Assembly (NCBI RefSeq): GCF_022832435.1
Contig: NZ_JALHLF010000007.1
Location: forward strand, 61,373-95,815
Direction: 5' to 3'
DNA: 34,443 bases
DNA from: Novosphingobium organovorum
Lineage (GTDB): Bacteria; Pseudomonadota; Alphaproteobacteria; Sphingomonadales; Sphingomonadaceae
Under the pieces are notes generated by a model. The model was not told the DNA's origin and made no database searches. It saw only the letters and a list, made by a program, of their open reading frames with translations. The first letter of the stretch is position 1. Each line of letters begins with the position of its first letter. Positions 3,188 to 19,690 of the stretch are shown here, one piece after another. The position numbers were made by a program, and so were the translations under genes.

Positions 3188-3224
3188 TTGCTAAAACGAT
3201 AACGAGCGTTACGATGTGGTGCAA
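3188..3224. promoter_or_regulatory. Divergent promoters around GTAAC-N4-GTTAC operator (ALDH / transporter)
   Basis: The palindrome ATAACGAGCGTTAC (3199-3212) matches the window-wide GTAAC-N4-GTTAC element at 9 of its 10 arm bases. It sits inside two back-to-back promoter-like elements. Leftward there is TTGCAC (3219-3224), 17 bp, then TATCGT (3196-3201). Rightward there is TTGCTA (3188-3193), 16 bp, then TACGAT (3210-3215). One bound protein would occlude both, which suggests repression. Confidence 0.6.
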
Positions 3225-3298
3225 CGCCCAAAACGCATAGTCTGCGTAGAAAATGGGAAGAGCGCTCGCGTCCAGCGCTGGGGAGAGGATCGAACACG

Positions 3299-4639
3299 AT
3301 GCACGACAGCGCGAGCCGGGCCGAACCGGCGCAGGGCCCATCCGGGGCAGACCCGTCCTTGGTCGGAGAGCCCGCGCCGTCACCGTCACCGTCACCGTCA
3401 CCGTCACCTTCGGGGCGGCGCAGCCGGGGCGTGTCGCTGGTGCTGTGCGGCGCGGTCATGCTGCTCGACGGGTACGATCTGACCGCGATGCCGCTGGCTG
3501 TGCCGCATCTCGGCCCGCTGCTGGGCCTTGCCCCGCAGGGGTTCGCGCTGGCGCTGTCGGCGGTGCTGCTCGGGCTTGGGCTGGGGGCGGTGACGCTGGC
3601 GCCGCTGGGCGATCGGTTTGGTCGGCGGCGGGTGATCCTGGCGGCGCTGCCGGTGCTGGCGGCGGCGACGTTTGGCACTGCGAGCGGGCGCACGCTGGAG
3701 GCTTTCGCCGCGTGGCGTCTGCTGACCGGGCTCGCGCTGGGCGCGTGCCTGCCGAACGTGACCGCGCTCAGCGCCGAACTGGCCCGGCCGGGACGGCGCG
3801 CGAGCACGATGAGCGTGGTTTCCATGGCGATCCCGCTGGGCGCGGCGGGCGCGGGGCTGATCGTCCCGCCGCTGGTGGCGCTGGCGGGCTGGGCAGCCAT
3901 CTTCCTGCTGGCGGGCATCGTGACGCTGGTTCTCTTCGTAGCGCTGTGGCTGGGGCTTGCCGAAGCGCCGCAGATGGCCTCCACCGCGTCGCAAAATACC
4001 CGCATCGCCGCGCTCTGGTTGGCGCTGCTGGCGCCCTCGGTGCGGCGTGTCACCGGGCTGATCTGCGCGCTCTACGCGCTCAACGCTGGCGTGCTTTATT
4101 ACGTCAATTCGTGGGTGCCCACGGTGCTGCCCTGGGCCGGGTTCCCGCTCGCCAGCGCGGCGCACGCGGTCGCGTTGCTGCAGATTGGCGGCATGGCCAT
4201 CGCGCTCGTCCTGGCGCGGCTGCTCGACGCGGGGCGCGGGATTGCGGTCCTTGCGGCAAGTTATGCGGTGATCGCTGCGGCGCTGCTGGCGTTCGGCCTT
4301 ATCGCGCCGACGCGCCTGGGCTGGGGCGCGCTGTTGCTGCTGGCGGGCGGCGGGGTGGCGGGTGTCCACGTCGCCATCCTCGCGCTGGCCTCGCAGTGGG
4401 TCGCGCCGCGCCTGCTGTCGAGCTTGATCGGGATGGCGGTGGCGCTGGCGCGGATCGGGGCGATTGGCGGCCCGTTGCTGGGGGGACTGGTGGTGGCGCG
4501 GGTTCCGGCCGAGCCCGCCGGGGCGAGCGCTTTCTTCGCGCTTGCCGCGGTCCCGGTGGCGGCGTGTCTGGGGCTGGTCCTGCTCTTGCGCCGGACCGCC
4601 CCGCGGCGACCCGCCCAGGGTAACTCAGTCGAGCCTTAG
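3299..4639 (+). CDS. AAHS-family MFS transporter (aromatic acid:H+ symporter-like)
   Basis: This 446-aa inner-membrane carrier has about 12 hydrophobic segments. It shows the DGYD motif in the first membrane helix (57-60) and the loop 2-3 signature GDRFGRR (104-110). Both are hallmarks of the aromatic acid/H+ symporter group (PcaK, BenK and VanK type), so it probably imports an aromatic acid such as vanillate or a related phenolic acid. The ATG at 3299 follows a GGGGAGAGG ribosome site. The cytoplasmic N-terminus carries an unusual Pro-Ser repeat (about 27-38) encoded by five exact copies of CCGTCA. It is divergent from the aldehyde dehydrogenase, with the shared operator near 3205 in between. 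Its 3' end overlaps the convergent DoxX-like gene by 15 bp. Confidence 0.85.
   Translation: MHDSASRAEPAQGPSGADPSLVGEPAPSPSPSPSPSPSGRRSRGVSLVLCGAVMLLDGYDLTAMPLAVPHLGPLLGLAPQGFALALSAVLLGLGLGAVTLAPLGDRFGRRRVILAALPVLAAATFGTASGRTLEAFAAWRLLTGLALGACLPNVTALSAELARPGRRASTMSVVSMAIPLGAAGAGLIVPPLVALAGWAAIFLLAGIVTLVLFVALWLGLAEAPQMASTASQNTRIAALWLALLAPSVRRVTGLICALYALNAGVLYYVNSWVPTVLPWAGFPLASAAHAVALLQIGGMAIALVLARLLDAGRGIAVLAASYAVIAAALLAFGLIAPTRLGWGALLLLAGGGVAGVHVAILALASQWVAPRLLSSLIGMAVALARIGAIGGPLLGGLVVARVPAEPAGASAFFALAAVPVAACLGLVLLLRRTAPRRPAQGNSVEP
3377..3406 (+). repeat. Five tandem CCGTCA hexamers in the transporter gene
   Basis: Five perfect copies of a 6-base unit encode alternating Pro and Ser in the N-terminal cytoplasmic tail of the AAHS transporter. 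Unit length is a multiple of three, so copy-number change would alter tail length without shifting the frame. Confidence 0.9.
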
Positions 4640-5044
4640 CGTAAAGTCGCGCGCGCCTTTCCACGCGGTCAGCATCGGGCGGTAGTAGGCGCGGTAGGGC
4701 CACAGCAGGACGGCGTTGAACAGCACGGTGAGCGCGCCGAACACCACCTCGACGACGCCCCATTCGAGCGCGAAGTTCCAGTAGGCGATGACCACCGTGA
4801 GGGGGACCGCGGCGGCCGCGACGAGTGGCATCAGCCGGTCGGCGAGGACCAGCACGGCGATCGCGATCTCGGCCACCTTGACCCAGGCGAACAGCCCCGA
4901 ATGGATCAGGGCGAGCGTGAATTCCTGGCCGAGCGCGGTGTTGCCCAGCGGCTGGAGGTCGAAGGGGGTGAAATACTCCACCCCCGAGAACAGATACCAG
5001 CCGCCAAAAACCATCCGACTGACATGGTAGAGCGTGCGCATCAT
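4625..5044 (-). CDS. DoxX-like small integral membrane protein
   Basis: This is a protein of about 139 aa with four predicted membrane segments, including VFGGWYLFSGVEYF, an Ala/Val-rich helix near IAIAVLVLADRL and a final VVFGALTVLFNAVLL. It resembles the DoxX/DoxD-like membrane family, whose biochemical role is mostly unclear (some members associate with thiosulfate or thiol-redox oxidation). I chose the ATG at 5044 because GAGGAG lies about 10 bases upstream; the open frame extends to 5089 but would then overlap the receptor gene. It starts 14 bp after the TonB receptor stop and is very probably co-transcribed with it. A function linked to uptake or quinone-coupled oxidation is a guess. 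Confidence 0.7.
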   Translation of the reverse strand: MMRTLYHVSRMVFGGWYLFSGVEYFTPFDLQPLGNTALGQEFTLALIHSGLFAWVKVAEIAIAVLVLADRLMPLVAAAAVPLTVVIAYWNFALEWGVVEVVFGALTVLFNAVLLWPYRAYYRPMLTAWKGARDFTLRLD

Positions 5045-5058
5045 GGCCTTCGCGCTCC

Positions 5059-7485
5059 TCAGAACGAACGGCGCAGCGCGACGAACCACTCGCGCGGGCG
5101 TCCCACCGCGCCGGTGACCACGCCGTAGTTCGAATAGTTGTCCGCCTTGCCGGTATAGTAGAATTTGTCGAACAGGTTGGTGATCGCGCTGCTCAGTTCC
5201 CAGTCGCCGTCGTGCGAGGCGTAGGTCAGGCGCAGGTTGAACAGGCTGCGCGCGGCGACCTTGTTGGTGTCCGCGTTGACCGAGTTGAAGTAGAACGCGG
5301 ACTGATAGGTCCAGTCGAAGCGGGGGGTCAGCGTGCCGATCCCGTGGCCCAGGTCCGCCTTGTACTGGACCCCTGCGCTGCTCTGCCAGGACGGGTTGAA
5401 CGGCGCCTTCATGGCGAGCGAAACCCCGGTCGAGGCGTCCACGCTGGTGTACTGGAAGTGGAGGTAGCCGAACGAACCGTCGATCTGGAGACCGTCGAGG
5501 GGTTCGGCGAACAGTTCGCCCTCAAGCCCCCATACATGCGCGTTGCCCGCGTTGGCCGGCTCCGAACAGGTCGACAGCACGCTTTCGCTGCAGGTGTAGC
5601 GGTTGATCTGGATGTTCTTGTAATCGTTGTAGAAGAACGTGCCGTTGAAGCGCAGGCGGCGGTCCAGCAGGTCCGACTTGAAGCCCGCTTCGTAAGTAAC
5701 GAGCGTTTCGGGATCGAAAGTCACGATCTGGTCGACGACGTAGGGGCGCGGGTTGGTGCCGCCGCCCTTGTAGCCGGTGGCGACCTGCGCATAGACCATG
5801 AGTTCGGGGCTGAAGCGGTAGTTGGCACCCAGCCGCCAGTCGATCCGGTCGCCCGTGTAGGTGCTGCTCTGGTCGTTGAGCCCGACCACCAGCAGGTTCA
5901 CCAGCGAAGCGCCGTCGGGCACGCTGCCGTCGGTGTTGCTGCGGTGGAAGACATAGGTCTTCTTGTCGTCGGTGTAGCGCAGCCCGCCGATGAGGTTGAG
6001 CGCGTCGGTCAGGTGCAGCTCGCCATGGACGAAGGCCGAGGTCGAGCGGTTGGTGACCGGATCGTCCTGAATGAAATCGAGCTGCGAGGTGGGCAGCAGG
6101 ACGCGGCCGGTGATGCGATCCCTGGCGTTGTAATAGTACCCGCCCACGGTCATGTCGGCGAGCGTGCCGAGCTGCGCGGAGAGGCGCAGTTCCTGCGTGA
6201 ACTGCTTGTGCCCATAGGTGAATTCCTGGGTCAGCAGCGAGAGCGGTGAACCGTCCAGGTCGATGCCGGTCTTGCCGTGCGCCTCGCGGTAGGCGGTGAT
6301 CGAGGTCAGCGCGAGATGATCGCCCAGCTGGTAGTCTACATGGCCCGCCACGCCCCAGGCCTTTGCGGTGTTCTCGGGGCTGGTGGTGAAGCTGCCGGGC
6401 TCGACCTGGTAGGGCCCGAAGACCGAATCGTAATTGCCCCCGCTCGCGTAGTTGGCGTAGCTGGTGTACGAATGCGCGCCGGTGATGAAGCGGCTGTCGA
6501 ACGGCACGCCCGCGCTGGCATCGTCCGCGACGTAACTGCGCACGGCCGAGTTGTCGGCGGCGATCAGCTTGGTGGCGACCTGTTCGGAATTGTTCTGCGA
6601 ATAGTCTCCTACAAGGTTGATCTCGAGCGGCGAGCCGTCGGGCTGGTAGCGCAACGCGAGGCGTCCGCCGTGAATGTCGATGCCGCCTTCGGTGCCGGTC
6701 TTGCAGCTCTTGCTGCCCGTCGTCGCGGTGATGCCCGAATCCGGATAGAGGCAACCATAGTCGAGCAGCGTCATGTACCCGTCGGTGTGCTTGGACATTC
6801 CCGAAACGCGCGCGTAGAGCCCGTCGGCGATGGTGAAGTCGGCGCTGCCCTTGAAATCGAGCCGGCCGTAGCTCCCCGTGCTTGCCTCGAGGAAGCCGCC
6901 GCCGTTGCCGTCGGGCTTCTTGCTGAACAGCTTGATCGAGCCACCGATCGAGTTCTTGCCCGACAGCGTGCCCTGCGGACCGCGCAGGACTTCGACCCGG
7001 TCGAGATCGTTGAGTTCGAGGATCGCGCCGAACGTGGTGCCGTAATAGACGTCGTCGATGTAGATGCCCACGCCCGGTTCGAGCGCGAAGCTGGAATCGT
7101 TCTGGCCGATGCCGCGGATATAGGCCTGGATCGCGCTGCCGTTGAGCCCGGTCGCCTGCGAGAGGTTCACGTTGGGCGCGATCGCGGTGAGATCGGTCAC
7201 GCTCTCCACGCTCTTGGCTTCCAGCTCCGCGCCGCTGGTCGCGGTGATCGCGATCGGTGTGTCCTGCAGGCGCTGCGCACGGAACTGCGCGGTGACGATG
7301 ATCTCGGGAATGCTGGCCCCGTCACTGGCCCCGTTACTGGCCCCGCCCCTGGCCGGAGCGTCGGCGGCTGGCGGGGTGGAGGTGGTCTGGGCCTGGGCGA
7401 GACTGGCCGCGCCGGTAAGGCCGGTGGTGAGGGCGATGATCGCGGTCATCGTCCGCCGGGCAGGGGTGATCGTGGCTCGTGCCAT
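5059..7485 (-). CDS. TonB-dependent outer membrane receptor (first copy)
   Basis: This 808-aa outer-membrane beta-barrel imports a ligand using TonB-ExbBD energy. It has a signal peptide (about 1-33, ending LAQAQ), a low-complexity Gly/Ala/Ser stretch, a TonB-box-like EIIVTAQFRAQRLQDTPIAIT, a plug domain with RGIGQND and VEVLRGPQGTLSGKNSIGG, and a long barrel closing in REWFVALRRSF with the C-terminal Phe needed for insertion. Sphingomonads use such receptors for aromatics and other substrates as well as iron. The ATG at 7485 follows GGGAGAGGA. It probably heads a two-gene unit with the DoxX-like gene and is controlled by the palindrome at 7764. The context points to a lignin- or plant-phenolic ligand rather than a siderophore; this is inferred from neighbours only. 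Confidence 0.92.
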   Translation of the reverse strand: MARATITPARRTMTAIIALTTGLTGAASLAQAQTTSTPPAADAPARGGASNGASDGASIPEIIVTAQFRAQRLQDTPIAITATSGAELEAKSVESVTDLTAIAPNVNLSQATGLNGSAIQAYIRGIGQNDSSFALEPGVGIYIDDVYYGTTFGAILELNDLDRVEVLRGPQGTLSGKNSIGGSIKLFSKKPDGNGGGFLEASTGSYGRLDFKGSADFTIADGLYARVSGMSKHTDGYMTLLDYGCLYPDSGITATTGSKSCKTGTEGGIDIHGGRLALRYQPDGSPLEINLVGDYSQNNSEQVATKLIAADNSAVRSYVADDASAGVPFDSRFITGAHSYTSYANYASGGNYDSVFGPYQVEPGSFTTSPENTAKAWGVAGHVDYQLGDHLALTSITAYREAHGKTGIDLDGSPLSLLTQEFTYGHKQFTQELRLSAQLGTLADMTVGGYYYNARDRITGRVLLPTSQLDFIQDDPVTNRSTSAFVHGELHLTDALNLIGGLRYTDDKKTYVFHRSNTDGSVPDGASLVNLLVVGLNDQSSTYTGDRIDWRLGANYRFSPELMVYAQVATGYKGGGTNPRPYVVDQIVTFDPETLVTYEAGFKSDLLDRRLRFNGTFFYNDYKNIQINRYTCSESVLSTCSEPANAGNAHVWGLEGELFAEPLDGLQIDGSFGYLHFQYTSVDASTGVSLAMKAPFNPSWQSSAGVQYKADLGHGIGTLTPRFDWTYQSAFYFNSVNADTNKVAARSLFNLRLTYASHDGDWELSSAITNLFDKFYYTGKADNYSNYGVVTGAVGRPREWFVALRRSF

Positions 7486-7839
7486 GCTGGTTGTCCTCTC
7501 CCTAATGCCGCCGGAGCAGGGCCGGGGATGGCGGGTCCTTGAGGCCCGTTCTCATCCTCGCCTCAGGGGTCAGGGCAGGGCCGGGCCCGCGTGGTGCGAC
7601 CATGGGCCTTGCGCCGTCGTCCCGATCCGACGGTTGCTTGCTGGTGACTGTTCTTGTTTATGTTCAGTTCTGGTTCTGTGCAGGCGCGTGCGTGCGGGCG
7701 GTGCCCGGCGCTGGGACGCGCCCTGTGCACCGGGTGCCGACACGCTCCCTGTCTATCAAATTTGTAACGATCGTTACTAATGAGTCAATCGAAAAATCGG
7801 CCCGATCCGCGTCCGCCGCGGATCCGGCATGAACGGGGT
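7486..7839. other. 354-bp intergenic leader of the TonB receptor
   Basis: No gene is supported here. The stretch holds a promoter with palindromic operator (7760-7788) close to the dioxygenase end and a predicted long leader of about 260 bases before the receptor start. The leader has no T-rich terminator or riboswitch pattern that I can recognise; parts of it are GC-rich (7560-7620) and an AT-richer segment lies at 7640-7680. Confidence 0.5.
7760..7788 (-). promoter_or_regulatory. TonB receptor promoter with perfect GTAACGATCGTTAC operator
   Basis: The 14-bp perfect palindrome at 7764-7777 lies between a leftward -35-like TTGACT (7783-7788) and a weak -10-like ACAAAT (7760-7765), with a 17-bp spacer. 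The geometry is the same as at the NmrA promoter, so the operator occupies the RNA polymerase spacer and probably works by repression. Confidence 0.65.
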
Positions 7840-9327
7840 TCAGGCGGCGTGGGCGGGTTCGCGGCGGGCTTTCGCCTGGTCCAGCTGCTGGCGGGAAACC
7901 CACCATCCGTGGACTTGCGCGCGCATCGGCATGGGCATCGCCACGCGCGCCACCGGCCCGGCTGCAATGGCGCCTGCATCGATCACCCACAGCTCGGAAT
8001 CGAACCGGTTCTCGCCCACCTGTTTGTCCACGACCGTTAATAACCAGCCTTCCTTTTCGGGATCGGCCGAGGGGACGTGGACGGGCTCGTTGATGGCCAT
8101 GCCGGGGCCGAGCGGCAGCGCTTCGATGCGCCCGTTACTCGGCTCGATCTGGAGCAGCATGTTGAACGAGACGCCAACCGGCCCGCCCAGCACCGGGGGA
8201 CCGCCCTGCGGGTTGATGGTCAGATACCAGCCCTTGCGGTGCAGCCGTCCCTGGCTCGCATCGGGAATGCGCGGCATGTCGCCCGGAGGGCCGATCACGC
8301 GCGATTCGAAGCTTTCGCCGGGCTTGCCCATGTCGAAGCTCCAGCGGGTCAGCCCGCCCCCGACGTCCTGCTGCGCGCGATCCACCCCGCCCGCCTCGCG
8401 CATGAAGGGGAAGGCGCAGGTGTCCGACAGGCACACGTCGAGATGGACGAAATCGCCTTCCTCGTAGGCGTTGAGGAAATGGAACGCGGAAACCCCCTTG
8501 GGGCCCTTGAACCAGCGCATCTCCTCGACCTTGCCATAGCGCGGCATGATCCCGACCCAGCTTTCCAGCTCCTGCTGGTGCGCCCAGTGCGGGCCGCCCG
8601 CCGCGATCCGGTCAAGATCGGCGGTGGTCGGAAAAATCGGGAAGATGGCGTAGCGCTCGGTGATCAGGAAATCGTGAATGGTCGAGCAGTAGGGCTGCTT
8701 GAACCACTGTTCGCTGACAAGATTGCCATGCTTGTCGGCAATGCCGTAGGCGACGTCGAGACTGGCCAGCCCGCCGGCCTCGTAGCCGAAAAAGAACATC
8801 TCGCCGGTCACCGGGTCGATGCGTGGGTGCGCGGTGAAGGTCTGCGATTTGAGCGCGCCGTAATAGTCGAACCGGCCGAGCGTCTCGAGCGTTTCGGGAT
8901 CGATCTCGTAGCCAAGGCCGTCCTCCTTGGTCATCAGCAACCGCCCGGCGTGCCAGACCGGGGTGGTGTTGGCGACGGTGCGGTCCTTGCCCGCAACGCT
9001 GGGATCATCGGTATAGGGGTTGCGGTAGCGCCCGAAGAGCGCCTTGCGCGCCGCCTTTTCGAGCGCATAGCGTTCGGTCTCGACGAACTTGATGGCGTAG
9101 TCGACATGGCCACCATGGATGTCGAACTTGGCGATCATGCCGTCGGCCGAAAGCGCGATCTCGTCTTCGAACATCGGCGCGTGGGCGGGGTCGGGCACGG
9201 CGCGGAAGAAGGCGCCGTCGATCTCTTCGGGGATGGTCCCTGTGACTTCGAGATTGGACGCCGACCATTCGATGCCGACGGGGGTGTTGGTGCCTGTGAA
9301 ATGGACGGTCTGCGGAAAATCGGTCAC
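7840..9327 (-). CDS. Lignostilbene-type carotenoid cleavage dioxygenase
   Basis: This 495-aa seven-bladed propeller enzyme should use non-haem Fe(II) and O2 to split a stilbene double bond into two aldehydes. The four iron-ligand histidines fit H167 (TAHPR), H218 (TIHDF), H283 (AFHFL) and H473 (QVHGWW). In lignostilbene dioxygenases, Tyr101 and Lys134 hold the substrate 4-hydroxyl group; here Y101 (FGRYRNPYTDDPS) and K134 (LMTKEDGLGY) fall at the same numbers, so a 4-hydroxystilbene is more likely than a carotenoid. No signal peptide is seen, so it is cytoplasmic. The start is a GTG at 9327 behind GGAGAGGAAG. It lies 94 bp downstream of the GMC gene on the same strand and may belong to that operon. 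It would feed vanillin-type aldehydes to the aldehyde dehydrogenase and then LigM. The exact stilbene is unknown. Confidence 0.88.
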   Translation of the reverse strand: MTDFPQTVHFTGTNTPVGIEWSASNLEVTGTIPEEIDGAFFRAVPDPAHAPMFEDEIALSADGMIAKFDIHGGHVDYAIKFVETERYALEKAARKALFGRYRNPYTDDPSVAGKDRTVANTTPVWHAGRLLMTKEDGLGYEIDPETLETLGRFDYYGALKSQTFTAHPRIDPVTGEMFFFGYEAGGLASLDVAYGIADKHGNLVSEQWFKQPYCSTIHDFLITERYAIFPIFPTTADLDRIAAGGPHWAHQQELESWVGIMPRYGKVEEMRWFKGPKGVSAFHFLNAYEEGDFVHLDVCLSDTCAFPFMREAGGVDRAQQDVGGGLTRWSFDMGKPGESFESRVIGPPGDMPRIPDASQGRLHRKGWYLTINPQGGPPVLGGPVGVSFNMLLQIEPSNGRIEALPLGPGMAINEPVHVPSADPEKEGWLLTVVDKQVGENRFDSELWVIDAGAIAAGPVARVAMPMPMRAQVHGWWVSRQQLDQAKARREPAHAA

Positions 9328-9421
9328 GGCTACTTCCTCTCCAAAAGTGTAACCAGAACGGTTGTTTACGGTATTCTCCCCGGGTGGTCCCCGTATCGTT
9401 GCTCTGTGTGACGTGCCCCCC

Positions 9422-11032
9422 TCAGGCGGGGACGCGCAGGGCCTTCAAGACGTGATCGGAACCCTTGTCGCCGACCATGATCGCAGTGGCGTTGGTGTTG
9501 CCGGCGGGCAGGCTGGGGAAGACCGAGGCATCGGCGACCCACAATCCTTCGACACCGTGGACCGCAAGGTCGGCGTCGACCACCGCCATCAGATCGTCGC
9601 TGGCCCCCATCCTGGCCGTGCCGACCGGGTGGTAGAGCGGGATCGAGGCGAGCTTGACGTATTCGCGCAGCGCTTCGGGCGCCTGGAGCGGGACACCGGG
9701 GCGCACTTCGCCGGTGACCTGCGCGGCCATCGGCGAGGCGGCCATGATGCGGCGCGCGATGGCGATCCCCTCGACGATCTGCTCGATGTCGTCGTCGCTG
9801 CCCAGTTGACGGTGCGCGATCACCGGCGGGGCGAGCGGGTCGGGTGAGCGCAAGGTGATCCGCCCGCGCGAGGAGGGGCGCATCAGCCCGATCAGGGTAG
9901 AGACCGCCGCGTCCTTGCGCAGCATCAGCCGGCCCTGCTCGTCGAAATCGAAGGCGAAGGCGGCGAAGGAAATCTGCAGGTTGGGCGCGGGAAGCCCCGG
10001 ACGGCCGTGGACGAAGGCCTGCGCGTGGCCGATCCCGGTGGTCAGCGCACCGGTGCGGGCAAGCGCGAACTTGAGCACCTGCCAGGCCCCGCGCAGGCCT
10101 TGTGCATCGGTGTTGAGCGTGGTCGCGCTGACCGTGTTGACGAGGTGCGTGCCGACATGGTCCTGCAGGTTGCGCCCGACGCCGGGCCGTTCGCACACGA
10201 CGGGAATGCCCATGTCCTGAAGATGTTCGGCCGGACCGATGCCCGACAGCATGAGCAGGCGCGGGGTGTTCATCGATCCCGCGCTCAGCACCACGCCGCG
10301 CCGCGCGCGCAGCGTGCGCTCGGCGCCGTCCTGGCGCACGATGACGCCGGTGGCGCGGCCATTTTCGACAAGCACGCGCAGCACCTGGCATTCGAGCACG
10401 ACCTCGAGCATCGCGCCGTGGCTTTGCCCTTCAAGATAGCCGCGCGCGCTTGAACTGCGCAGGCCTGCGCGCTGCGAGACCTGGACGTAATCGACCCCTT
10501 CGGCGCATTGCCCGTTGAGGTCGGCAGAACGCGCGATGCCCGCCGCCTGCGCCGCCTCGATCCAGTCATCGGTGATGGCGTAGCGCGCGCGCACTTCGGA
10601 CACCCCGATCGGACCGCCGGTGCCGCGCCATTCGTCTGCGCCGCGCTCGTTGTCCTCCAGCCGCCGGAAATAGGGCAGGCAGCTGGCGTAGTCCCACCCT
10701 GTGGCGCCAAGCTCGGCCCAGTGGTCATAGTCCCACTTGTGGCCGCGGATAAACATCATCCCGTTGAGCGAACTTCCCCCGCCCAGCAGCTTTCCGGCGG
10801 GCCAGACATCGGCGCGTCCGCCCAGCGAGGGATCGGGCTCGACGGTGTAGCACCAGTCGAAATCGGGGTTCTGCACCAGGGAACTGGTGAGCGCGGGGAC
10901 CCGCGACTTGAGCACCTTGTCGGTGCCCCCGGCTTCGATCAGGCAGGTGCTGATGCCGCCTTGGGCGAGGCGCGCGGCCATCGCCGCACCGGCCGATCCG
11001 CCGCCGACGACGAGGATATCGGGTTCGTTCAT
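9422..11032 (-). CDS. GMC-family FAD alcohol oxidoreductase
   Basis: This 536-aa flavoprotein has the N-terminal FAD-binding GGGSAG (10-15), the Glu of the dinucleotide fold in IEAGG, and the C-terminal GMC signature. The active-site pair is present as H468 (YHPVGTARMG) and N512 (GNTNATAIM). The family oxidises primary or secondary alcohols; in Sphingobium SYK-6 members oxidise lignin side-chain alcohols (HpvZ on hydroxypropiovanillone, PhcC/PhcD on phenylcoumarans). I place the start at the ATG at 11032, with GGGAGAGAG just upstream; a TTG at 11050 would overlap the preceding gene. It follows the PQQ dehydrogenase gene by 14 bp in the NmrA-led operon. Oxidation of a gamma-hydroxymethyl group on an aromatic dimer or phenylpropanoid is the best guess; a choline-dehydrogenase-like role is less likely here. 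Confidence 0.88.
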   Translation of the reverse strand: MNEPDILVVGGGSAGAAMAARLAQGGISTCLIEAGGTDKVLKSRVPALTSSLVQNPDFDWCYTVEPDPSLGGRADVWPAGKLLGGGSSLNGMMFIRGHKWDYDHWAELGATGWDYASCLPYFRRLEDNERGADEWRGTGGPIGVSEVRARYAITDDWIEAAQAAGIARSADLNGQCAEGVDYVQVSQRAGLRSSSARGYLEGQSHGAMLEVVLECQVLRVLVENGRATGVIVRQDGAERTLRARRGVVLSAGSMNTPRLLMLSGIGPAEHLQDMGIPVVCERPGVGRNLQDHVGTHLVNTVSATTLNTDAQGLRGAWQVLKFALARTGALTTGIGHAQAFVHGRPGLPAPNLQISFAAFAFDFDEQGRLMLRKDAAVSTLIGLMRPSSRGRITLRSPDPLAPPVIAHRQLGSDDDIEQIVEGIAIARRIMAASPMAAQVTGEVRPGVPLQAPEALREYVKLASIPLYHPVGTARMGASDDLMAVVDADLAVHGVEGLWVADASVFPSLPAGNTNATAIMVGDKGSDHVLKALRVPA

Positions 11033-11046
11033 GGCCGCTCTCTCCC

Positions 11047-13248
11047 TCAATAGCTCGACAGGATGGTGAGGCTGGGCGCGTCGAGCGGTTTGCCTTGCGC
11101 CTGCAGTTCCAGCTCGCGTTTGCGTTCCTTGGCCTGTTCGTCGATCAGCCAGGCGTGGATGGCGTGGGCATCGTCCTTGCTGATGAGATCGTCCCAGCGC
11201 GGCATTCCGGCGGGCACGAACGCGCCTTCGAGCACGATCTGGTCGAACGCCTCGTGGATCTCGGGCGGCATGCGGCGAAGGTCGGGCACGCCCGAGCGGA
11301 TCTGGTTGGAGTGGCAGATCGCGCAGTTGCCAAAGAACACCGCCTGGCCGCGCGCGAGGGTTGCGGGCGTTACGCCGGGGGCTTGCGCGGGCGGCGCGGC
11401 GACGACCTGCGGGGCGGGTAGCGGGTCGGGCTTGGTGACGGGTTTGCCATCGAGCCGGAAAACCAGCAGCTGGTTTTCGTTGCCGTATGTGTAGGCCGCC
11501 GAATAGCGCGGCACGAAGCCCCAGCCGCCGCCGCCAAAGCCGGTGGCGACCGCGACATACTGCACGCCCCCCACGCGGTAGGTCATCGGTGCGGCCATGA
11601 TCGAGCGTCCGGTGTCGAGGCTGGCGAGGACTTTCCCGGTCCCGGCGTCGCGGGCGTAGAAATGCCCGTCAATGCTGCCGTGGAACACCAGTCCGGTGCG
11701 GGTGGCAAGCACGCCGGGGCGGTCCTGCCAGCCCGCGGTGTCGACCGCCCACTTGGCCTTGCCGGTCATCGGATCGATCGCGCGGACCTGCGAACTAAAG
11801 GGCTTGTCCTTGACCCACTGCCATTCGGGCAGCGCCTTGACCGCGTCCTGCAGCGGCGGGGGCAGGGTGGCGAGCGAATGCTCCAGGTCCGAGGTGAACA
11901 GCAGCGCGGTCTGGATGTTGAGCGCCTTCTTGCGGTGCGGGTCCTTGGGGTCGAGCGGGGGCGTCGGGAACATGAGGTTGCCCATGTCGAGCACCGAGGC
12001 GAAATAGAGTCCGCGCCCGGCATCGTAGGCCGCCGGATACCAGTTGCGCGCGCCGGGCGAGGCGGGAAAGACGATCCGCGGCCCCTTCCAGTAGTTGGCG
12101 CCGTTGGCGGTCTTGTTCGGGCGCCCGCTGGCAAGGTCGTAGCCCTTGGCCCAGCTCGTGCGCACGAGCGCGTTGATCGCGAGCGGCTTGCCGGTTTCGC
12201 GGTCGATCACGAACAGGAAGCCGTTCTTGGGCGCGTGCAGGATGACCGGGCGCGAACGGCCATCGATGGTCATGTCGGTGAGGACCATCGGCTGGGTCGA
12301 GGTGAAGTCCCAGGCGTCGCCCGGCGTTTCCTGATAGGCCCATTTCACCCGCCCGGTCTTGCGGTCGAGCGCGACGAGCGAGCCGAGGTAGAGGTTGTCC
12401 CCGCCACCGGGCGAACGGCGCTCGATGTTGTAGGGGCCGCCGTTGCCGACGCCGATGATGACCGTGTCGAAACGCGCATCGTAGTTGATCGCGTCCCACA
12501 CCGTGCCGCCGCCGCCGATGTCCCAGCGGCTGTCCTTCGACCATGTCGCCACCGCCTTGTCGAGCGCGGGGCTCTCCTGCGGCCCGAGCTTGGGGTCGCG
12601 GGGCACGGTGAAGAAGCGCCAGGCCTGTTTGCCGGTCGCAAGGTCATAGGCGGTGACATAGCCGCGTGTGTCGTACTCCGCGCCGCCGTTGCCGATCAGC
12701 ACAAGGTTCCCGGCCACTTCGGGCGCGCCGGTGATGGTGTAGCCGCGCGTCGTGTCGGTGAAGGTCTGGACCTTCCACAGGACCTTGCCGTTCTTCGCGT
12801 CGAGCGCGTAGAGCCACCCGTCGAGCGTGCCGACGAAGACCTTGCCCTGCGCCACGGCAACGCCCCGGTTGGCCTGGTCGCAGCAGGCGGCGCGGTTGGC
12901 CTGCATGTCGATCTCGGGGGTGAATGTCCACAGTTCGCGGCCCGTCGCGGCGTCGAGCGCGTAGGCCCGGCCCAGGTTGCCCCCGGTGTACATCACCCCG
13001 TCAACTACCACCGGGGTGGCTTCCTGCACGCGGTTGGTGCCCAGGTCATAGCTCCAGGCCAGGCCCAGGCGCGCGACATTGCCCGGATTGATGTCGGTCA
13101 GCGCGGAGAAGTGCGCGGCATCGGCCCCGCCCTTGGGGCTGGGCCAGTCGTCGCCGGTGCCCGGATTGGCGGCTTGTCCCGAAGCGAGCGAGCAGGCGGC
13201 GAGAATGAGGGCGGGCGCAACGATGAGCGCTTGGCGCAGGCGGCTCAC
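11047..13248 (-). CDS. PQQ-dependent quinohaemoprotein dehydrogenase, lipoprotein (first copy)
   Basis: This 733-aa periplasmic dehydrogenase combines an eight-bladed PQQ propeller with a C-terminal cytochrome c domain (CAICH, 642-646). The vicinal disulfide pair C122-C123 (ACCDQANRG), the Ca-ligand GVGNGGPYN and the catalytic Asp in AWDFTSTQ are all visible, so alcohol (or aldehyde) oxidation with electrons passed to haem is expected. The N-terminus is short with lipobox LAAC (C19), so the enzyme is probably membrane-anchored rather than soluble. The start is a GTG at 13248 whose GTGA overlaps the NmrA stop; the GMC gene follows after 14 bp. A periplasmic benzylic or allylic alcohol of an imported aromatic is a plausible substrate. 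PQQ biosynthesis genes are not in the window. Confidence 0.9.
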   Translation of the reverse strand: MSRLRQALIVAPALILAACSLASGQAANPGTGDDWPSPKGGADAAHFSALTDINPGNVARLGLAWSYDLGTNRVQEATPVVVDGVMYTGGNLGRAYALDAATGRELWTFTPEIDMQANRAACCDQANRGVAVAQGKVFVGTLDGWLYALDAKNGKVLWKVQTFTDTTRGYTITGAPEVAGNLVLIGNGGAEYDTRGYVTAYDLATGKQAWRFFTVPRDPKLGPQESPALDKAVATWSKDSRWDIGGGGTVWDAINYDARFDTVIIGVGNGGPYNIERRSPGGGDNLYLGSLVALDRKTGRVKWAYQETPGDAWDFTSTQPMVLTDMTIDGRSRPVILHAPKNGFLFVIDRETGKPLAINALVRTSWAKGYDLASGRPNKTANGANYWKGPRIVFPASPGARNWYPAAYDAGRGLYFASVLDMGNLMFPTPPLDPKDPHRKKALNIQTALLFTSDLEHSLATLPPPLQDAVKALPEWQWVKDKPFSSQVRAIDPMTGKAKWAVDTAGWQDRPGVLATRTGLVFHGSIDGHFYARDAGTGKVLASLDTGRSIMAAPMTYRVGGVQYVAVATGFGGGGWGFVPRYSAAYTYGNENQLLVFRLDGKPVTKPDPLPAPQVVAAPPAQAPGVTPATLARGQAVFFGNCAICHSNQIRSGVPDLRRMPPEIHEAFDQIVLEGAFVPAGMPRWDDLISKDDAHAIHAWLIDEQAKERKRELELQAQGKPLDAPSLTILSSY

Positions 13249-14159
13249 TTCGGCCAGCTCGCGCAGTGCTGGAGCATGACGTCGCGCAAAGAACGCGGGG
13301 GCCTGCCGGTCAGTTTCGCGACATGGTCGGTCGCCTGTTCGAAATAGCCTTCGCGGATCGCCTGGCCGAAGGTCACCATGTCGTCGCTCGACCAGGGGAT
13401 CGGCCCGTCGGGCACGATGTCGGAGGCGTGGCGCGGCACGCCCAGCGCGTCGAAATAGGCGAACATCGCCGCATCGTCGACCGGTTCGACCACGATTGGC
13501 TTGTCCGCGATTTCGCTCGCCATGGCCAACGCCTCGGGGATCGAGAGAAGCTCGGGACCGGTCAGGGTATAGGCGGTGTTGGCGTGGCCGTCCTGCGTGA
13601 GCACGCCGACCGCCGAGGCCACGCAGTCCTCGCGGCTGACGAAGGCGACCTTGCCCTCGCCGCAGTTGTCGGCCTTGCGGCCTTCGGCAAGGGCGGGGAT
13701 CACCATGGCGCGCGCGATGGCCTCGGCGTACTGGCTGTCGCGCAGGTGCGTCCAGGCCGCGCCCGAGGCTTCGATGATTTCCTCGGTGGCGCGGTGATCC
13801 AGCTTGACGATGGCCGGATTGCCGGGCGCATCGGCGGCGATCAGCGAGGTGTAGACGATGTGGCCGACTCCGGTAGCCACCGCGGCCTCCACAGCGTTAC
13901 GGTGCTGGCCCACGCGCGTGCCCACGCGCGCGGTGCTTATGAGCAGCATCCGCTCACCGCCTTGCATCGCGGCGGGAAGCGTGGCCGGATCGTCGAAATC
14001 CGCGCTGCGCACTTGTGCGCCCGCCTCGGCAAAGGGCTTGAGCTTTTCCGGGGTGCGGGTCAGAAACACGAGGTCTTCGGGCGCGCAGCGCGCCAGAAGC
14101 TGCTCTGCCGCGGCGCGGCCGAAGGCGCCCGATGCGCCGGTGACGATGATCTTGCCCAA
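13245..14159 (-). CDS. NmrA/QOR2-type NAD(P)H-binding oxidoreductase
   Basis: This 304-aa atypical short-chain dehydrogenase has the N-terminal dinucleotide motif TGASGAFG, the segment GHIVYTSLIAADAPGN and a later LDHRATEEIIEASG helix. These match the NmrA/QOR2 (quinone-reductase-like) branch. A classical Tyr-x3-Lys site is absent, as is usual there. Possible roles are NAD(P)H-dependent reduction of a quinone or enone, or redox sensing. Pinoresinol and phenylcoumaran reductases are distant relatives, but I see no strong match to them. Start is a TTG at 14159 behind GGGAAGAGAG. It is first in a leftward unit NmrA - PQQ dehydrogenase - GMC (perhaps - dioxygenase), transcribed from a promoter that shares its operator with the divergent NTF2 gene. 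Confidence 0.78.
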   Translation of the reverse strand: MGKIIVTGASGAFGRAAAEQLLARCAPEDLVFLTRTPEKLKPFAEAGAQVRSADFDDPATLPAAMQGGERMLLISTARVGTRVGQHRNAVEAAVATGVGHIVYTSLIAADAPGNPAIVKLDHRATEEIIEASGAAWTHLRDSQYAEAIARAMVIPALAEGRKADNCGEGKVAFVSREDCVASAVGVLTQDGHANTAYTLTGPELLSIPEALAMASEIADKPIVVEPVDDAAMFAYFDALGVPRHASDIVPDGPIPWSSDDMVTFGQAIREGYFEQATDHVAKLTGRPPRSLRDVMLQHCASWPK

Positions 14160-14204
14160 GGGTTCTCTCTCTTCCCAAGCTGCTCCGAATCTTCGACGGA
14201 GTTC

Positions 14205-14241
14205 TTGTGGGCAACAGTAACGAGTGTTACGATGTCGTCAA
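14205..14241. promoter_or_regulatory. Divergent promoters around GTAACGAGTGTTAC operator (NmrA operon / NTF2 gene)
   Basis: The palindrome with perfect 5-bp arms (14217-14230) lies within two opposed promoter-like elements. Leftward there is TTGACG (14236-14241), 17 bp, then ACTGTT (14213-14218). Rightward there is TTGTGG (14205-14210), 17 bp, then TACGAT (14228-14233). This is the clearest copy of the shared operator arrangement. Confidence 0.65.
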
Positions 14242-14303
14242 GGCGCGATACGGCCCCCGCTCGAAGCGCAGGCGGTATCGGCGCGAGATGGGAGAGAAGA
14301 GAC

Positions 14304-14801
14304 TTGGCACCAATTGCGATCGAAGACCGGCTGGCCCTGCAGGACCTGATTGCCGACTACAGCTGGGCGCTCGACACCGGCGACGTCGAGGCGCTGGTCG
14401 CCTGCTTCACCAGCGACGCGCGCATGGTCGAGGAAGTGTTCGAGGACCCGGACATCTGGGAAGGGCACGAAGGCATTCGCGGCATCGCCGAGCACTACCG
14501 CAACGCGCCCGGCTTTCCCGGCCGCCAGCACCACGTCACCCAGACCCAGTTCACGCCGCAGGCGGATGGATCGGTCACCATGCGCAGCTTTGCCTTCGTC
14601 ACCGAGTGCGAGGACGAGCCGCCCTACCTCCTGCGCTTCACCGGATGGTACGACGATCACGCGGTCAAGGGCGAGGACGGGCGCTGGCGCTTCCACCGCC
14701 GCACCGTGCGCCTGTGGGACGGCGCGGTGCTGAGCAAGTTCCCCGGACGCGGCCAGTGGGTGGCGCGCAAGCGTCCGGCTTCGCTGGTGATCCAGCGGTA
14801 G
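14304..14801 (+). CDS. SnoaL/NTF2-fold enzyme, possible stilbene-forming lyase (165 aa)
   Basis: This is a one-domain protein of the SnoaL_4 type. The N-terminal helix has DRLALQDLIADYSWALDTGD and an acidic VEALVACFTSDARM; a conserved His pair appears in RQHHVTQTQF. In Novosphingobium, LdpA is an NTF2-like enzyme that removes formaldehyde from diarylpropane diols to give lignostilbene, which a lignostilbene dioxygenase then cleaves. This gene shares a regulatory region with the NmrA-GMC-dioxygenase side, so a similar lyase, dehydratase or decarboxylase step on a dimer is reasonable but unproven. I chose TTG at 14304 because GGGAGAGAAG precedes it; the in-frame ATG at 14232 lies inside the operator and has no ribosome site. 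The long open frame upstream of 14232 is an antisense shadow of the NmrA gene. Confidence 0.8.
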   Translation: MAPIAIEDRLALQDLIADYSWALDTGDVEALVACFTSDARMVEEVFEDPDIWEGHEGIRGIAEHYRNAPGFPGRQHHVTQTQFTPQADGSVTMRSFAFVTECEDEPPYLLRFTGWYDDHAVKGEDGRWRFHRRTVRLWDGAVLSKFPGRGQWVARKRPASLVIQR

Positions 14802-14929
14802 GGGAGAGGGGGCAAGGGTGGTTCTCTCGGTGGATTTCCAAGAGCCCACCCCCAGCCCGGCCCGGCCCGCAGGCGGGAGGGGGGAAGCAGGGTGTCCTTC
14901 CGACCTTTCTGAAGGGCCGGTCCAATGGG

Positions 14930-15484
14930 TCAGCCGCGCAAGTGCAGCACCCAGCTGACGCTTGAGAGTCGGTCGGCCTGGGGTTTGCTATGCGGCTGCG
15001 CGCGGGGCGGAGTGTCCATTGCGCCAAGCGCGTAGTGCGCGAAGGCTTCGGGCCAGAGCGGGCCACTGGCGCGGGTCAGGGCGGCGAGATCGTGTGGCGC
15101 GCGTCCGCACCGGGCATCGCCAAGGCACCCGGTACGGTGCCCGATGCGGACGCGCGCATCGTAGCCGAGCTCGCGCGCAGCGTCGATGAAAAGCAGCCGG
15201 TCGGCCTCCTGGCTGATCGCAAAGACCTGGCCGGGGCGTGTGGCGAGGAGCGTGCGGGCCAGGCGGATCGGGTCGCCCGACAGCACGAGGCTGGGCTGGC
15301 CAAGCGCCTGTGCGCGCGCGGCAAAGCGGCGTCCGGCGGCAAGGCTGGGATCGTGGAGGAGCAGGACCGAGGCGTCCTTCGGCGCGGCGGCAAACGCACC
15401 GGGAGGCAGGGCGGCGCTCAGCAGCCCGGCGGGCAGGGCCAGGCTCGAGTGGGCGAGCAGCGCGCGGCGGGTGAGCGGGCTCAT
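14930..15484 (-). CDS. Exported protein of unknown function in PchX position
   Basis: This 184-aa protein has a twin-arginine-like leader (SPLTRRALLAHSS followed by a hydrophobic stretch ending AFAAA). The mature part shows SVLLLHDPSLAAGRRFAARA and two Cys in GCLGDARCG; I recognise no domain. It overlaps the cytochrome c gene by ATGA (start 15484), so it is surely co-translated with the flavoprotein and cytochrome. The p-cresol methylhydroxylase operon of Pseudomonas putida, pchACXF, also carries a gene of unknown function, pchX, next to the two subunit genes, so this could be the counterpart: an assembly, export or flavinylation helper. That is inference from position; I cannot confirm sequence similarity. 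Confidence 0.72.
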   Translation of the reverse strand: MSPLTRRALLAHSSLALPAGLLSAALPPGAFAAAPKDASVLLLHDPSLAAGRRFAARAQALGQPSLVLSGDPIRLARTLLATRPGQVFAISQEADRLLFIDAARELGYDARVRIGHRTGCLGDARCGRAPHDLAALTRASGPLWPEAFAHYALGAMDTPPRAQPHSKPQADRLSSVSWVLHLRG

Positions 15485-15945
15485 CGGCGCGCCTTTCGCG
15501 ACGTGGGGGCCGCATCGTGCGCGAGGTAGTGCGCGATGGCCGCAAGCTGCGCATCGCTCGCCTCGCCGCGCGGGATCGCGGGCATGTTGCCGATCCCCAT
15601 GCGCGCGGCCTGGATCACGAAGTCGGCGGTAAGATCGGTGCGCTTTTCGAGCAGGGGCTCGTCGCTGCGGCGGGCGAGCAGGCCGGTGCCCATGCCGTTG
15701 GGCCCGTGGCACATGGCGCACTTTTCGAGGAACAGCCGCTCACCTGGTCCGGCGTCGGGACGCGAGGAGACCGTGAGTGGGGCGGGCAGGGGCGGTGGGC
15801 CCTTGGGTTCGGAGGCGGGTGCGGAGGCGGGTGCTGGCGCCGGGGTGTCGGCGTGCGCAGCGGCGAACGCGGCGGCCAAGGCAAGCGCACCCACGGTGGC
15901 GAGGGCAAAGGGACGGCGGCGGCGGGGCGTGCGAACGGGGGTCAT
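15481..15945 (-). CDS. Periplasmic cytochrome c subunit (PchC/EhyA-like)
   Basis: This 154-aa protein has an Arg-rich n-region and a hydrophobic signal segment (about 12-32, ending AHA), a Pro/Ala-rich linker (34-57), and one class I cytochrome c domain with CAMCH at 76-80 and a likely axial Met in GNMPAIP (M121). A small c-type cytochrome encoded directly after a VAO/PCMH-type flavoprotein is the hallmark of p-cresol methylhydroxylase and eugenol hydroxylase, in which it takes electrons from FAD and passes them to the respiratory chain. Start ATG at 15945 overlaps the flavoprotein stop (ATGA), and the next gene overlaps its own stop in the same way. The gene order flavoprotein then cytochrome is compatible with tight stoichiometry. 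Confidence 0.88.
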   Translation of the reverse strand: MTPVRTPRRRRPFALATVGALALAAAFAAAHADTPAPAPASAPASEPKGPPPLPAPLTVSSRPDAGPGERLFLEKCAMCHGPNGMGTGLLARRSDEPLLEKRTDLTADFVIQAARMGIGNMPAIPRGEASDAQLAAIAHYLAHDAAPTSRKARR

Positions 15946-17498
15946 GCGCTGGCTCCAAGGTTCGCGTCGGCCCAGATGCCGCTCTTGCCCGGTGCAATGA
16001 TTCCCGAGGGATCGAGCGCGTTCTTCACCCGCTGGTTGAGCTTGAGCAGCGCGTTGCCGCCGAAATCATAAGTCTGTGCGACGAGGTCCATGTAATCGAG
16101 ATGGGTGCGGTACTCGCCATAGCCCTGCGCCTTCGCGTCGGCGACGAGTTGGCGCAGGAAAGGGTCGACCTTGCCCATCATCGCGGGATCGTCCTTGTCG
16201 AGCAGCGCGACGTTGACGTTGATGAGGTGGCGTTCGCCAAAGGCGAAGCTCGCCTGATAGTCCATGCCGAATTCGCGGTAGCGATCGTAAGTGCGCTTGA
16301 ACTGCGCCATGGCCGCGTTGCCCGATTGCGGCAGCACGGGGGAGAACCCCAGGTGCCCGCCGCGCCCGCCATGCCAGTTGGCGTTCTGCATCGGAAAAGT
16401 GATCGGCGTTCCGGTCCAGCCCGAGTGTTCGAGCGGCTCGCCGCGTTTCCAGGTGGCGGGACGCAGGGTCATCGGCTTGAGATCGTTCATCGCCTTTTCA
16501 AGGATCGGGTAGGCCGCCTTATTGACCGCCTCGCGCCCGTAGAGGCGCAGGCTCACCCCCCACCAGCCGATGCGGTATTTGGCCCGGATCGCGGCAATTA
16601 CCGCATCGCTCAGCGCGCCGGGCTGGTCGGTCCATTCCGAGCGGGTGGTGAGCACGGCGGCCGCGCGCAGCCAGTTGCCGATGGTCGGCGATTGCTGGAG
16701 CAGCCCTTCGCGCCGCAAGGGGCCGAGCGCGTCGATCAGCGGGCCGAGATCCTCGGGGCTGTCGAACTCCAGATCCATGCCCATCAGCGATTCCGGCTCG
16801 GGCATCAGCCACAGCCCCATCTTGGTGACGATGCCGAAGTTGGACTGGACGAACATCTGGTCCCAGGCCGGGCCGAAGCCGTAGCGGTAGAGCTGCCAGG
16901 TGGGCGAACCCGCCAGCGCGCCCATGCCCGTGCGCACCACCGAACCGTCCGCCAGGACCACTTCCATCCCGCAGATCTTGCTCGTGTTCTCACCATAGGG
17001 GGTGTAGCCGACCCCGCGATCGAGCGCGTTGCCGACGACCGAGCCCCAGGCGTTGCCCGGCGTCGACAACCAGTGCTTCATGCCGCGCGCCTGGAGGAAA
17101 TCGTAAAGGTCGTAGAAGCCGACGCCCGGTTCGAGCAGGACGGTGCCGTTCGCCTCGTCGTACTCGATCTTCTTCATGCGCGAGAGGTCGAGCACAACCG
17201 ATCCGGCAAGCTCGGGCGCGCTGCCACCATAACCCAGGTTCTTGCCCCGGCTGATCGGCCAGAGCGGCACCTTGTGTTCCGCCGCGATGCGCACCAGCGC
17301 CTGGATTTCCTCGACCGTCTCGGGCGCGAGCGCGCCGGCGGGATGGTGCAGCGCATCGTCGATCGCGAACTTGTCCTGGTAGGACGTCGCGTCCTCGTCC
17401 GTAAAGAAGGTGCGGTCTGCGCCGAGTACCGACTGGAATTGCCTGAGCGCCTGCTGGATACGCGCCGGGGGCACGGCCCTTTCGCCTGTTGCTGCCAT
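15942..17498 (-). CDS. FAD-linked 4-alkylphenol oxidoreductase (PCMH/eugenol hydroxylase/VAO family)
   Basis: This 518-aa flavoprotein is the usual length for p-cresol methylhydroxylase PchF and eugenol oxidase. The FAD-binding domain (about 55-240) shows PLWPISRGKNLGYGGSAPEL and STPGNAWGSVVGNALDRG; the substrate-binding domain includes GGHLGFSPVLPQSG. The family oxidises 4-alkylphenols through a quinone methide, adding water to give an alcohol (for example eugenol to coniferyl alcohol, cresol to hydroxybenzyl alcohol). A cytochrome follows directly, so it is probably a dehydrogenase/hydroxylase rather than an O2-using oxidase. There is no signal peptide; PchF likewise lacks an obvious one. 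ATG at 17498 follows GGAGAGAG. The promoter region carries the shared palindrome at 17561. Which residue binds FAD covalently I cannot assign. Confidence 0.88.
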   Translation of the reverse strand: MAATGERAVPPARIQQALRQFQSVLGADRTFFTDEDATSYQDKFAIDDALHHPAGALAPETVEEIQALVRIAAEHKVPLWPISRGKNLGYGGSAPELAGSVVLDLSRMKKIEYDEANGTVLLEPGVGFYDLYDFLQARGMKHWLSTPGNAWGSVVGNALDRGVGYTPYGENTSKICGMEVVLADGSVVRTGMGALAGSPTWQLYRYGFGPAWDQMFVQSNFGIVTKMGLWLMPEPESLMGMDLEFDSPEDLGPLIDALGPLRREGLLQQSPTIGNWLRAAAVLTTRSEWTDQPGALSDAVIAAIRAKYRIGWWGVSLRLYGREAVNKAAYPILEKAMNDLKPMTLRPATWKRGEPLEHSGWTGTPITFPMQNANWHGGRGGHLGFSPVLPQSGNAAMAQFKRTYDRYREFGMDYQASFAFGERHLINVNVALLDKDDPAMMGKVDPFLRQLVADAKAQGYGEYRTHLDYMDLVAQTYDFGGNALLKLNQRVKNALDPSGIIAPGKSGIWADANLGASA

Positions 17499-17559
17499 CT
17501 CTCTCCGCCTCGCCCCGATGCGCTACCGCCCGAGGGCGCGCGCCGTGGCTCTCTTATTT

Positions 17560-17575
17560 AGTAACACTCGTTACT
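17560..17575 (-). promoter_or_regulatory. Operator AGTAACACTCGTTACT upstream of flavocytochrome operon
   Basis: This is a 16-bp palindrome with 6-bp arms and a 4-bp centre, 62 bp upstream of the flavoprotein start. It is the fourth copy of the GTAAC-N4-GTTAC element. Here the expected -35 at the usual offset is poor; an AT-rich ACTAAATA lies directly downstream in the leftward direction and a TTGACA is at 17596-17601, so the promoter position is not settled. Confidence 0.6.
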
Positions 17576-18200: not shown

Positions 18201-18206
18201 TATCTC

Positions 18207-19690
<1,484 letters not shown>

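Follow-up and report, generated by a model that had tools for sequence, protein, structure and literature searches.

The repression of aromatic catabolism by MarR-family proteins is already a known kind of control, and the repressors PcaV, HosA, HpaR, CouR and FerC resemble the candidate regulator described here, MarR1, in fold and presumed logic. The closest described system is that of Saro_0803 in Novosphingobium aromaticivorans, a MarR protein which is reported to be released by resveratrol and to act on nov1, a stilbene-cleaving dioxygenase gene, through an inverted repeat, GCAATA------TATTGC, at the -10 box of the promoter (PMC10046596). In Novosphingobium organovorum, a stretch of 34,443 nucleotides (C252:61373-95815, where C252 is contig NZ_JALHLF010000007.1), hereafter the window, likewise combines a palindrome at the -10 element, here GTAAC-N4-GTTAC, with a dioxygenase target, but differs in the operator sequence and in the joining of several promoters. 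Sequence and comparative data make this palindrome very probably the operator of MarR1, a MarR-family repressor encoded just left of the window, and the genes that it marks look suited to the catabolism of aromatic dimers of plant origin.

The pin genes of Novosphingobium rhizosphaerae LY offer a second point of comparison. According to two papers, they belong to the same families as the genes of the present cluster, namely NmrA, GMC, DUF3237, flavocytochrome and lignostilbene dioxygenase, and the DUF3237 decarboxylase gene follows two others within a putative operon (PMC12607616, PMC12997858). Bacterial enzymes acting on lignin dimers are being found quickly, and little is known of the means by which cells sense these compounds. 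The pinoresinol, beta-5 and dimer-review papers searched, the two just cited among them, do not use the word MarR in their main text.

Clustering and conservation of the palindrome

The four copies of the palindrome claimed in the initial annotation were all found exactly where it placed them. The first, at 3199..3212 (ATAACGAGCGTTAC, with one arm mismatch), lies in the overlapping divergent promoters of an aldehyde dehydrogenase gene (- strand) and an MFS transporter gene (+ strand); the second, at 7764..7777 (GTAACGATCGTTAC), in the promoter of a TonB-dependent receptor gene (TTGACT-16 bp-TACAAA on the - strand); the third, at 14217..14230 (GTAACGAGTGTTAC), in the overlapping divergent promoters of an NmrA operon (- strand) and a SnoaL_4 gene (+ strand); and the fourth, at 17561..17574 (GTAACACTCGTTAC), upstream of a flavocytochrome operon. 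When one mismatch was allowed, the window held five matches against 0.11 expected, a number reached in none of 100 dinucleotide shuffles. The fifth match (5696-5709, GTAACGAGCGTTTC) has a broken arm, falls within the TonB-receptor coding sequence and is probably due to chance.

The genome as a whole (4,604,542 bases in 284 contigs) contains four exact copies of the 14-base palindrome, against three of the reversed control pattern. Three of them lie in the window, and the fourth, on contig C236, was discarded as it lies inside an RND-pump gene. The relaxed form RTAAC-N4-GTTAY occurs seven times (control, seven), six of them within C252:58094-78946, and the core TAAC-R-NN-Y-GTTA (TAACRNNYGTTA) six times (control, five), at these same six C252 sites. 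Four are in the window and two just left of it: L009:16722 (numbered on L009, the locus adjoining the window on that side) stands ahead of a second MFS gene, MFS2, and L009:17991 separates a SnoaL gene from a divergent SnoaL-SDR-DUF3237 set. Copy number by itself is ordinary, the reversed pattern being about as frequent in the genome, but the clustering of six sites within one 21-kb stretch is far from chance (6e-11 by a rough placement estimate). Two-mismatch matches outside C252 equalled the control in number (totals of 13 and 14, against 14 and 12).

The conservation of these sites was then evaluated in other genomes. When 84,980 species genomes were scanned with an alignment of MarR1, 70 named loci (1.33 Mb) were obtained and then annotated with the proteins of the window and of L009. 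The same genes surround MarR1 in Novosphingobium, Sphingobium, Sphingomonas, Rhizorhapis, many Erythrobacteraceae and some gammaproteobacterial bins. Core sites number 207 in the 70 loci, all of them outside recognised genes, whereas the reversed control occurs nine times, three of these within genes; for the full 14-base pattern the counts were 11 exact and 142 one-mismatch matches, against 2 and 59. After removal of 15 loci, which left 55 non-redundant ones (MarR1 less than 90% identical), mostly from Sphingomonadales, 168 core sites remained, compared with 0-7 for each of nine palindromes of the same composition. At least one core site was present in 52 of the 55, and the spacer began with a purine and ended with a pyrimidine in 165 of the 168 sites.

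Core sites were indeed placed ahead of the same genes. Orthologues were dropped from the upstream counts below 50% identity or 60% coverage, or if the upstream stretch ran outside the locus; homologues of MFS1, the MFS transporter of the window, are mostly less than 50% identical and are hence absent. A core site was found within 300 bp upstream in 34/34 SnoaLa, 3/3 TonB-receptor, 33/34 NmrA and 40/44 dioxygenase orthologues, followed by SnoaL4 (31/35), MFS2 (14/17), GMC (5/7), MarR1 (36/66) and SnoaLb (15/33). The counts were low for aldehyde dehydrogenase (7/19), the pyrroloquinoline quinone (PQQ) dehydrogenase (2/17), SDR (0/47) and LigM-like (0/10) genes. By the same test, the reversed control stood upstream of two genes in all. 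Genes with low counts are taken to be mostly internal to operons; this was checked for four loci of the flavin adenine dinucleotide (FAD) gene only, in three of which an SDR-like gene, recognised by eye, lies between the site and the FAD gene. The comparative data strongly support the expectation of the initial annotation that uptake, side-chain oxidation and stilbene chemistry are linked in a regulon of their own. Neither of the outcomes named there as refuting was observed: the sites are clustered rather than scattered at random over the genome, and they are conserved upstream of orthologous genes.

At the family level, MarR1 orthologues were present in 37 of the 397 genomes searched. The best 30 of 38 matches were fetched as 3.5-kb loci, and the core was present in 27 of these, own genome included. 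In 24 of 27 loci, a site with at most two arm mismatches lies at the presumed start of marR1 or up to 700 bp ahead of it, a count which omits three of the 30 (L033, L036 and L041) with internal stops. Genomes with MarR1 contained 0-13 core sites (median 8, n = 37) and those lacking it 0-4 (median 1, n = 20; Mann-Whitney p 5.7e-9, against 0.36 for the control pattern), a difference tempered by the fact that related genomes are not independent and that the 20 MarR1-negative genomes are those listed, not a random draw. In strain SYK-6 (NC_015976), all five core sites of the genome fall within 17.4 kb (3,003,783-3,021,195) around MarR1 at 3,005,601, and adjoin a dioxygenase-GMC pair which, from gene order, is probably SLG_27970 (lsdF) and SLG_27980. 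One study reports that LsdF (LSD5) in lysates preferred lignostilbene over DCA-S, and does not count it among the dioxygenases named there as induced by dehydrodiconiferyl alcohol (PMC8191317).

Sites also occur far from the regulator gene. In two MarR1-positive genomes (G014 and G102), 14 sites were inspected, 12 of them far from marR1 and two at 8-10 kb from it. Nine of the 14 adjoin the start of a gene with a Pfam match; no fitting gene was identified at the other five. The genes found beside sites in both genomes were an RPE65-type dioxygenase, an aldehyde dehydrogenase and a GMC oxidoreductase (sites near marR1), and the others were a TonB receptor, a gluconolactonase-like protein and an FAD monooxygenase, the last site also lying in an opposite open frame. 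TAAC-R-NN-Y-GTTA may serve as a genomic tag for uncharacterised lignin-dimer genes elsewhere on the chromosome.

Outside the Alphaproteobacteria, two loci from gammaproteobacterial bins (L119 and L120) carry MarR1 relatives 46-47% identical, accompanied by core sites and by homologues of the NmrA, FAD, cytochrome and SnoaL proteins; horizontal transfer or misbinning may possibly account for this occurrence.

The candidate regulator

The initial annotation had allowed for a regulator encoded elsewhere, and rightly so: a MarR gene other than the one it named lies 2.5-3.1 kb left of the window edge. This gene, marR1 (C252:58270-58866, L009:16898-17494, - strand), sits between the two left-of-window sites, and a degenerate palindrome, ATCACGAATGTTAC, is found just upstream of its likely start. 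The MarR domain of the protein scores above the curated cut-offs (PF12802, 42.3 bits for a cut-off of 27; PF01047, 41.0 for 24.6). MarR1 stays below the cut-off in all 16 NCBIfam models listed for it, and outside the Saro_0803 family (NF053777, 29.3 bits against a cut-off of 200). Its AlphaFold model (predicted local distance difference test score 83.5, first 18 residues unreliable) has the MarR fold, with a helical core and a winged helix-turn-helix with a beta wing, and its best Foldseek match is the FabT-DNA complex 6jbx (E 1.8e-9). Structures of PcaV, HosA and HpaR are among the Foldseek matches, with 17-28% identity over the fold in the 50 matches shown; CouR appeared only as a match of MarR2 (see below), and FerC only in reference lists. 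As in other MarR systems, palindromic sites overlap the regulated promoters, often including that of marR1 itself, as judged by sequence and conservation. What appears new here is MarR1 with its operator, of which no description was found in literature searches, whose coverage mostly excluded subscription papers. Another regulator considered as a possible relative, PheR of Sphingobium, was set aside, being described as of IclR type with a different site.

The MarR gene proposed, beside that of an XRE protein, as regulator in the initial annotation, MarR2 (17634..18269, - strand), has several points in its favour: its 3' end is 60 bp from the 17561 site, it encodes a MarR protein, and the family to which it belongs is reported to control a stilbene dioxygenase gene of N. 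aromaticivorans (PMC10046596). That MarR2 binds the palindrome is nevertheless very unlikely. MarR2 is itself a Saro_0803-family member (NF053777, 218.8 bits, cut-off 200), a family with a different published repeat, and this repeat, as GCAATA-N6-TATTGC, is not enriched in the window (five matches with up to three mismatches, against 3.89 expected, none at the four sites). Among 19 foreign loci of MarR2 relatives, fetched out of 37 other genomes with a match, none had a core site within 1.5 kb, compared with 27/30 for MarR1, and in SYK-6 the MarR2 relative is located at 1.40 Mb, away from the five core sites at 3.00-3.02 Mb.

The palindrome could also be bound by a regulator of another type, TetR or other, encoded elsewhere, with MarR1 as a mere neighbour. 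Short palindromes of this form are indeed typical of TetR-type operators too, and the 20 genomes without MarR1 still hold 0-4 cores, three of them having a PinZ-like gene and 3-4 core sites. We consider this unlikely: the sites track MarR1 in both position and number over many genera, and in two of these three exceptions (G319 and G361) the pin-type cluster includes a gene for a MarR protein that shares about 30% identity with MarR1 and resembles it in the recognition-helix region, which reads, by eye, A-M-S/N-V-S-R-A.

Promoter anatomy and proposed mechanism

The statement that the site falls in a 16-17 bp spacer between -35-like and -10-like hexamers holds at 3199, 7764 and 14217. When read with one base of slack, the promoters of this genome show a TTG -35 element and, at a distance of 16 or 17 bp, a -10-like TAnnnN that starts with a T of the palindrome arm. 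Such pairs occur in both directions at 3199, 14217 and L009:17991, and in one direction at 7764. The further description of back-to-back promoters sharing one site stands as to the sharing; as to geometry, they are better described as two fully overlapping divergent promoters, which one operator appears from their sequence to cover. Bacterial bidirectional promoters built on sequence symmetry are known, and the present ones likewise place two divergent promoters on symmetric DNA; here the symmetric element would act as operator as well, and 8 bp separate the two -10 hexamers.

The same arrangement emerged from 192 distinct promoter segments pooled from relatives and aligned in gene orientation: TTG at -12 to -10 (T 78, T 59, G 60%), A at -4 (84%), A or G at +14 (52 and 43%), T at +15 (80%) and a weaker GCAA on the far side of the palindrome, a logo whose symmetry is partly built in, as divergent sites enter it in both orientations. 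The arms thus form -10 hexamers in both directions, which could mean that the palindrome is a promoter feature only, made of symmetric -10 elements with no specific regulator. This we regard as extremely improbable, given that the exact TAAC-N4-GTTA with R...Y flanks (165/168) exceeds what a -10 element needs, and that the core, with 6 sites in a genome of 4.6 Mb, is rare and follows MarR1 in its number. A role of MarR1 as an activator or dual regulator is compatible with site position taken alone, and some MarR proteins do activate. It appears decidedly unlikely: wherever a -35 is recognisable, the site occupies the -35/-10 spacer and extends into the -10 element, a position that fits steric exclusion of the polymerase.

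From a mechanistic point of view, we infer repression rather than activation, along with the binding, the operon structure, the ligand and the exact substrate. A MarR1 dimer would bind the extended palindrome AY-NN-TAACR-NN-YGTTA-NN-RT, bases that would double as promoter, each arm starting a -10 hexamer (TAnnRT) with a TTG -35 element 16-17 bp off. At divergent pairs, one bound dimer would close both completely overlapping promoters, while the weaker site ahead of marR1 would provide autoregulation. An aromatic dimer, or a breakdown intermediate, would bind MarR1 and release it from DNA. Release would switch on outer- and inner-membrane uptake and the operon of NmrA, PQQ dehydrogenase, GMC and lignostilbene dioxygenase genes, as well as the flavocytochrome, the SnoaL-SDR-DUF3237 operon and the aldehyde dehydrogenase. 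This reading offers a candidate sensor with an exact operator and a predicted target list, testable in the workhorse strain SYK-6, and makes of MarR1 and its operator a candidate biosensor part.

Several points weigh against assigning the palindrome to MarR1 as repressor. Three of the 55 non-redundant loci lack a core site (L059, L121 and L122), and two MarR1-positive genomes, G034 and G117, hold 0 and 1. Within 300 bp, a core site directly precedes only 14/45 FAD-gene and 4/47 DUF3237-gene orthologues. In N. organovorum, marR1's own site is degenerate, and no -35 element was recognisable in the gene's direction at 17561 or at the MFS2 (L009:16722) and marR1 promoters. The SYK-6 homologue of the aldehyde dehydrogenase of the window, 78% identical, also adjoins a core site, and its place suggests that it is bzaA, whose transcription is reported as constitutive with or without syringaldehyde or vanillin (PMC5353671); if so, induction by these two compounds receives no support. 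Lastly, the linkage of marR1 to the window spans a scaffold join (C252:61372) and is partly assembly-dependent in this genome, a doubt countered by two loci (L057 and L058) in which window-type and left-flank genes are contiguous.

As to the join itself, the window opens directly after a single N in the scaffold, with a repeat of about 100 bases on both sides; at least the first 60 bases of the window (1-60) repeat the tail of L009 (19900-20000).

The gene cluster, the pin pathway and a possible second MarR branch

The predicted regulon members of the window begin with the aldehyde dehydrogenase gene (1649..3121, - strand; Pfam Aldedh, 485 bits), the MFS transporter gene (3299..4639, + strand; Pfam MFS_1) and the TonB-dependent receptor gene (5059..7485, - strand; Pfam), which has a leader of about 280 bases. 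A presumed operon reads on the - strand from 14159, with the NmrA-family reductase, a PinZ-like paralogue (13245..14159; Pfam), as first gene, then a PQQ-dependent dehydrogenase with a c-type cytochrome domain (11047..13248; Pfam/NCBIfam), a PinY/PhcC-like GMC oxidoreductase (9422..11050; Pfam) and a NOV2/PinU/LsdF-like lignostilbene dioxygenase (7840..9327; NCBIfam NOV2, 886 bits for a cut-off of 650). Divergent from it is the SnoaL_4 (NTF2-like) gene (14304..14801, + strand; Pfam SnoaL_4, 70 bits, within open reading frame 13266-14801), for which the sequence suggests a TTG start at 14304. The flavocytochrome comprises a PinW/VAO-like FAD subunit (15942..17498, - strand; Pfam FAD_binding_4 and FAD-oxidase_C) and a PinV-like c-type cytochrome subunit (15481..15945, - strand; Pfam).

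The enzyme-family set of the LY pin pathway is present here, the DUF3237 gene lying left of the window. That the cluster might be the pin cluster itself was dropped, since SYK-6 has one PinZ-like match, presumably SYK-6 PinZ itself, and the NmrA protein shares no more than 48% identity with it; LY PinZ is reported as 73.3% identical to SYK-6 PinZ (PMC12607616). The closest NmrA homologues, 56-78% identical, all occur in MarR1-carrying genomes. The sequences indicate that the window holds a pathway paralogous, not orthologous, to the pinoresinol pathway. Five MarR1 genomes (G111, G380, G144, G391 and G075) have only the 47-49% kind of NmrA. Compared with the paralogues of pin-type clusters, window proteins are 47-49% (NmrA), 52-56% (pinU-type dioxygenase), 43-45% (FAD subunit) and mostly 61-70% (DUF3237) identical.

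In SYK-6, at about 3.00 Mb, homologues 79% and 71% identical to the FAD and cytochrome subunits of the window were observed. A table of 2026 lists no pinW or pinV homologue in this strain (PMC12997858), and this flavocytochrome and pinW/pinV may be different paralogues.

A wider code can be proposed, which we put forward tentatively and hold slightly less probable than its converse. The MarR subfamily with A-M-(S/N)-V-S-R-A and the TAAC half-site would form a shared regulatory code for the catabolism of lignin dimers across Sphingomonadales, divided into a MarR1 branch, for window-type pathways (commonest central bases GATC and ACTC), and a second branch, about 30% identical, mostly with AATT, for pinoresinol-type genes (pinU, pinW); in some MarR1 genomes, the regulon would have extended to additional genes for dioxygenases, aldehyde dehydrogenases and TonB receptors around the chromosome. 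Such a split code would set TAACAATTGTTA (pin-type MarR) against TAACGATCGTTA. A sample of 25 stretches was taken from 24 genomes on the basis of a pin-type cluster or of a MarR protein sharing about 30% identity with MarR1. The core was found in 15 of them, with 21 sites against three for the controls and none inside recognised genes. Fifteen of the 21 read TAACAATTGTTA or TAACTATTGTTA, and the genes that follow mostly resemble pinU, pinW or aldehyde dehydrogenase genes. The other ten stretches hold no core and so speak against the proposed code, among them L255, which we take to be the likely pin locus of N. aromaticivorans DSM12444, and autoregulation of the pin-type MarR was not supported (core within 1.5 kb in only 2/30 loci). 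The pin-type sites are a lead, not a result.

This second MarR subfamily was seen near pin-like genes in L195-L199 and L236-L255, with TAACWATTGTTA palindromes in part of them. At E 1e-12, it has matches in 73 of 195 genomes of the genus, some being MarR1 itself. Taken as a whole, the comparative data on the regulon point to wide occurrence of a pin-like pathway among Erythrobacteraceae.

At the right-hand side of the cluster, the LigM-like gene (18263) does not appear to be a regulon member, given the 0/10 orthologues with a core site noted above, and neither does MarR2, given the 19 foreign loci of its relatives without a core site. The family match of MarR2 begins at residue 69, so that its true start is probably further downstream. 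Over 17634-19690, this Saro_0803-family gene is divergent from the LigM/DesA-like aminomethyltransferase gene, named by sequence rather than by a family search.

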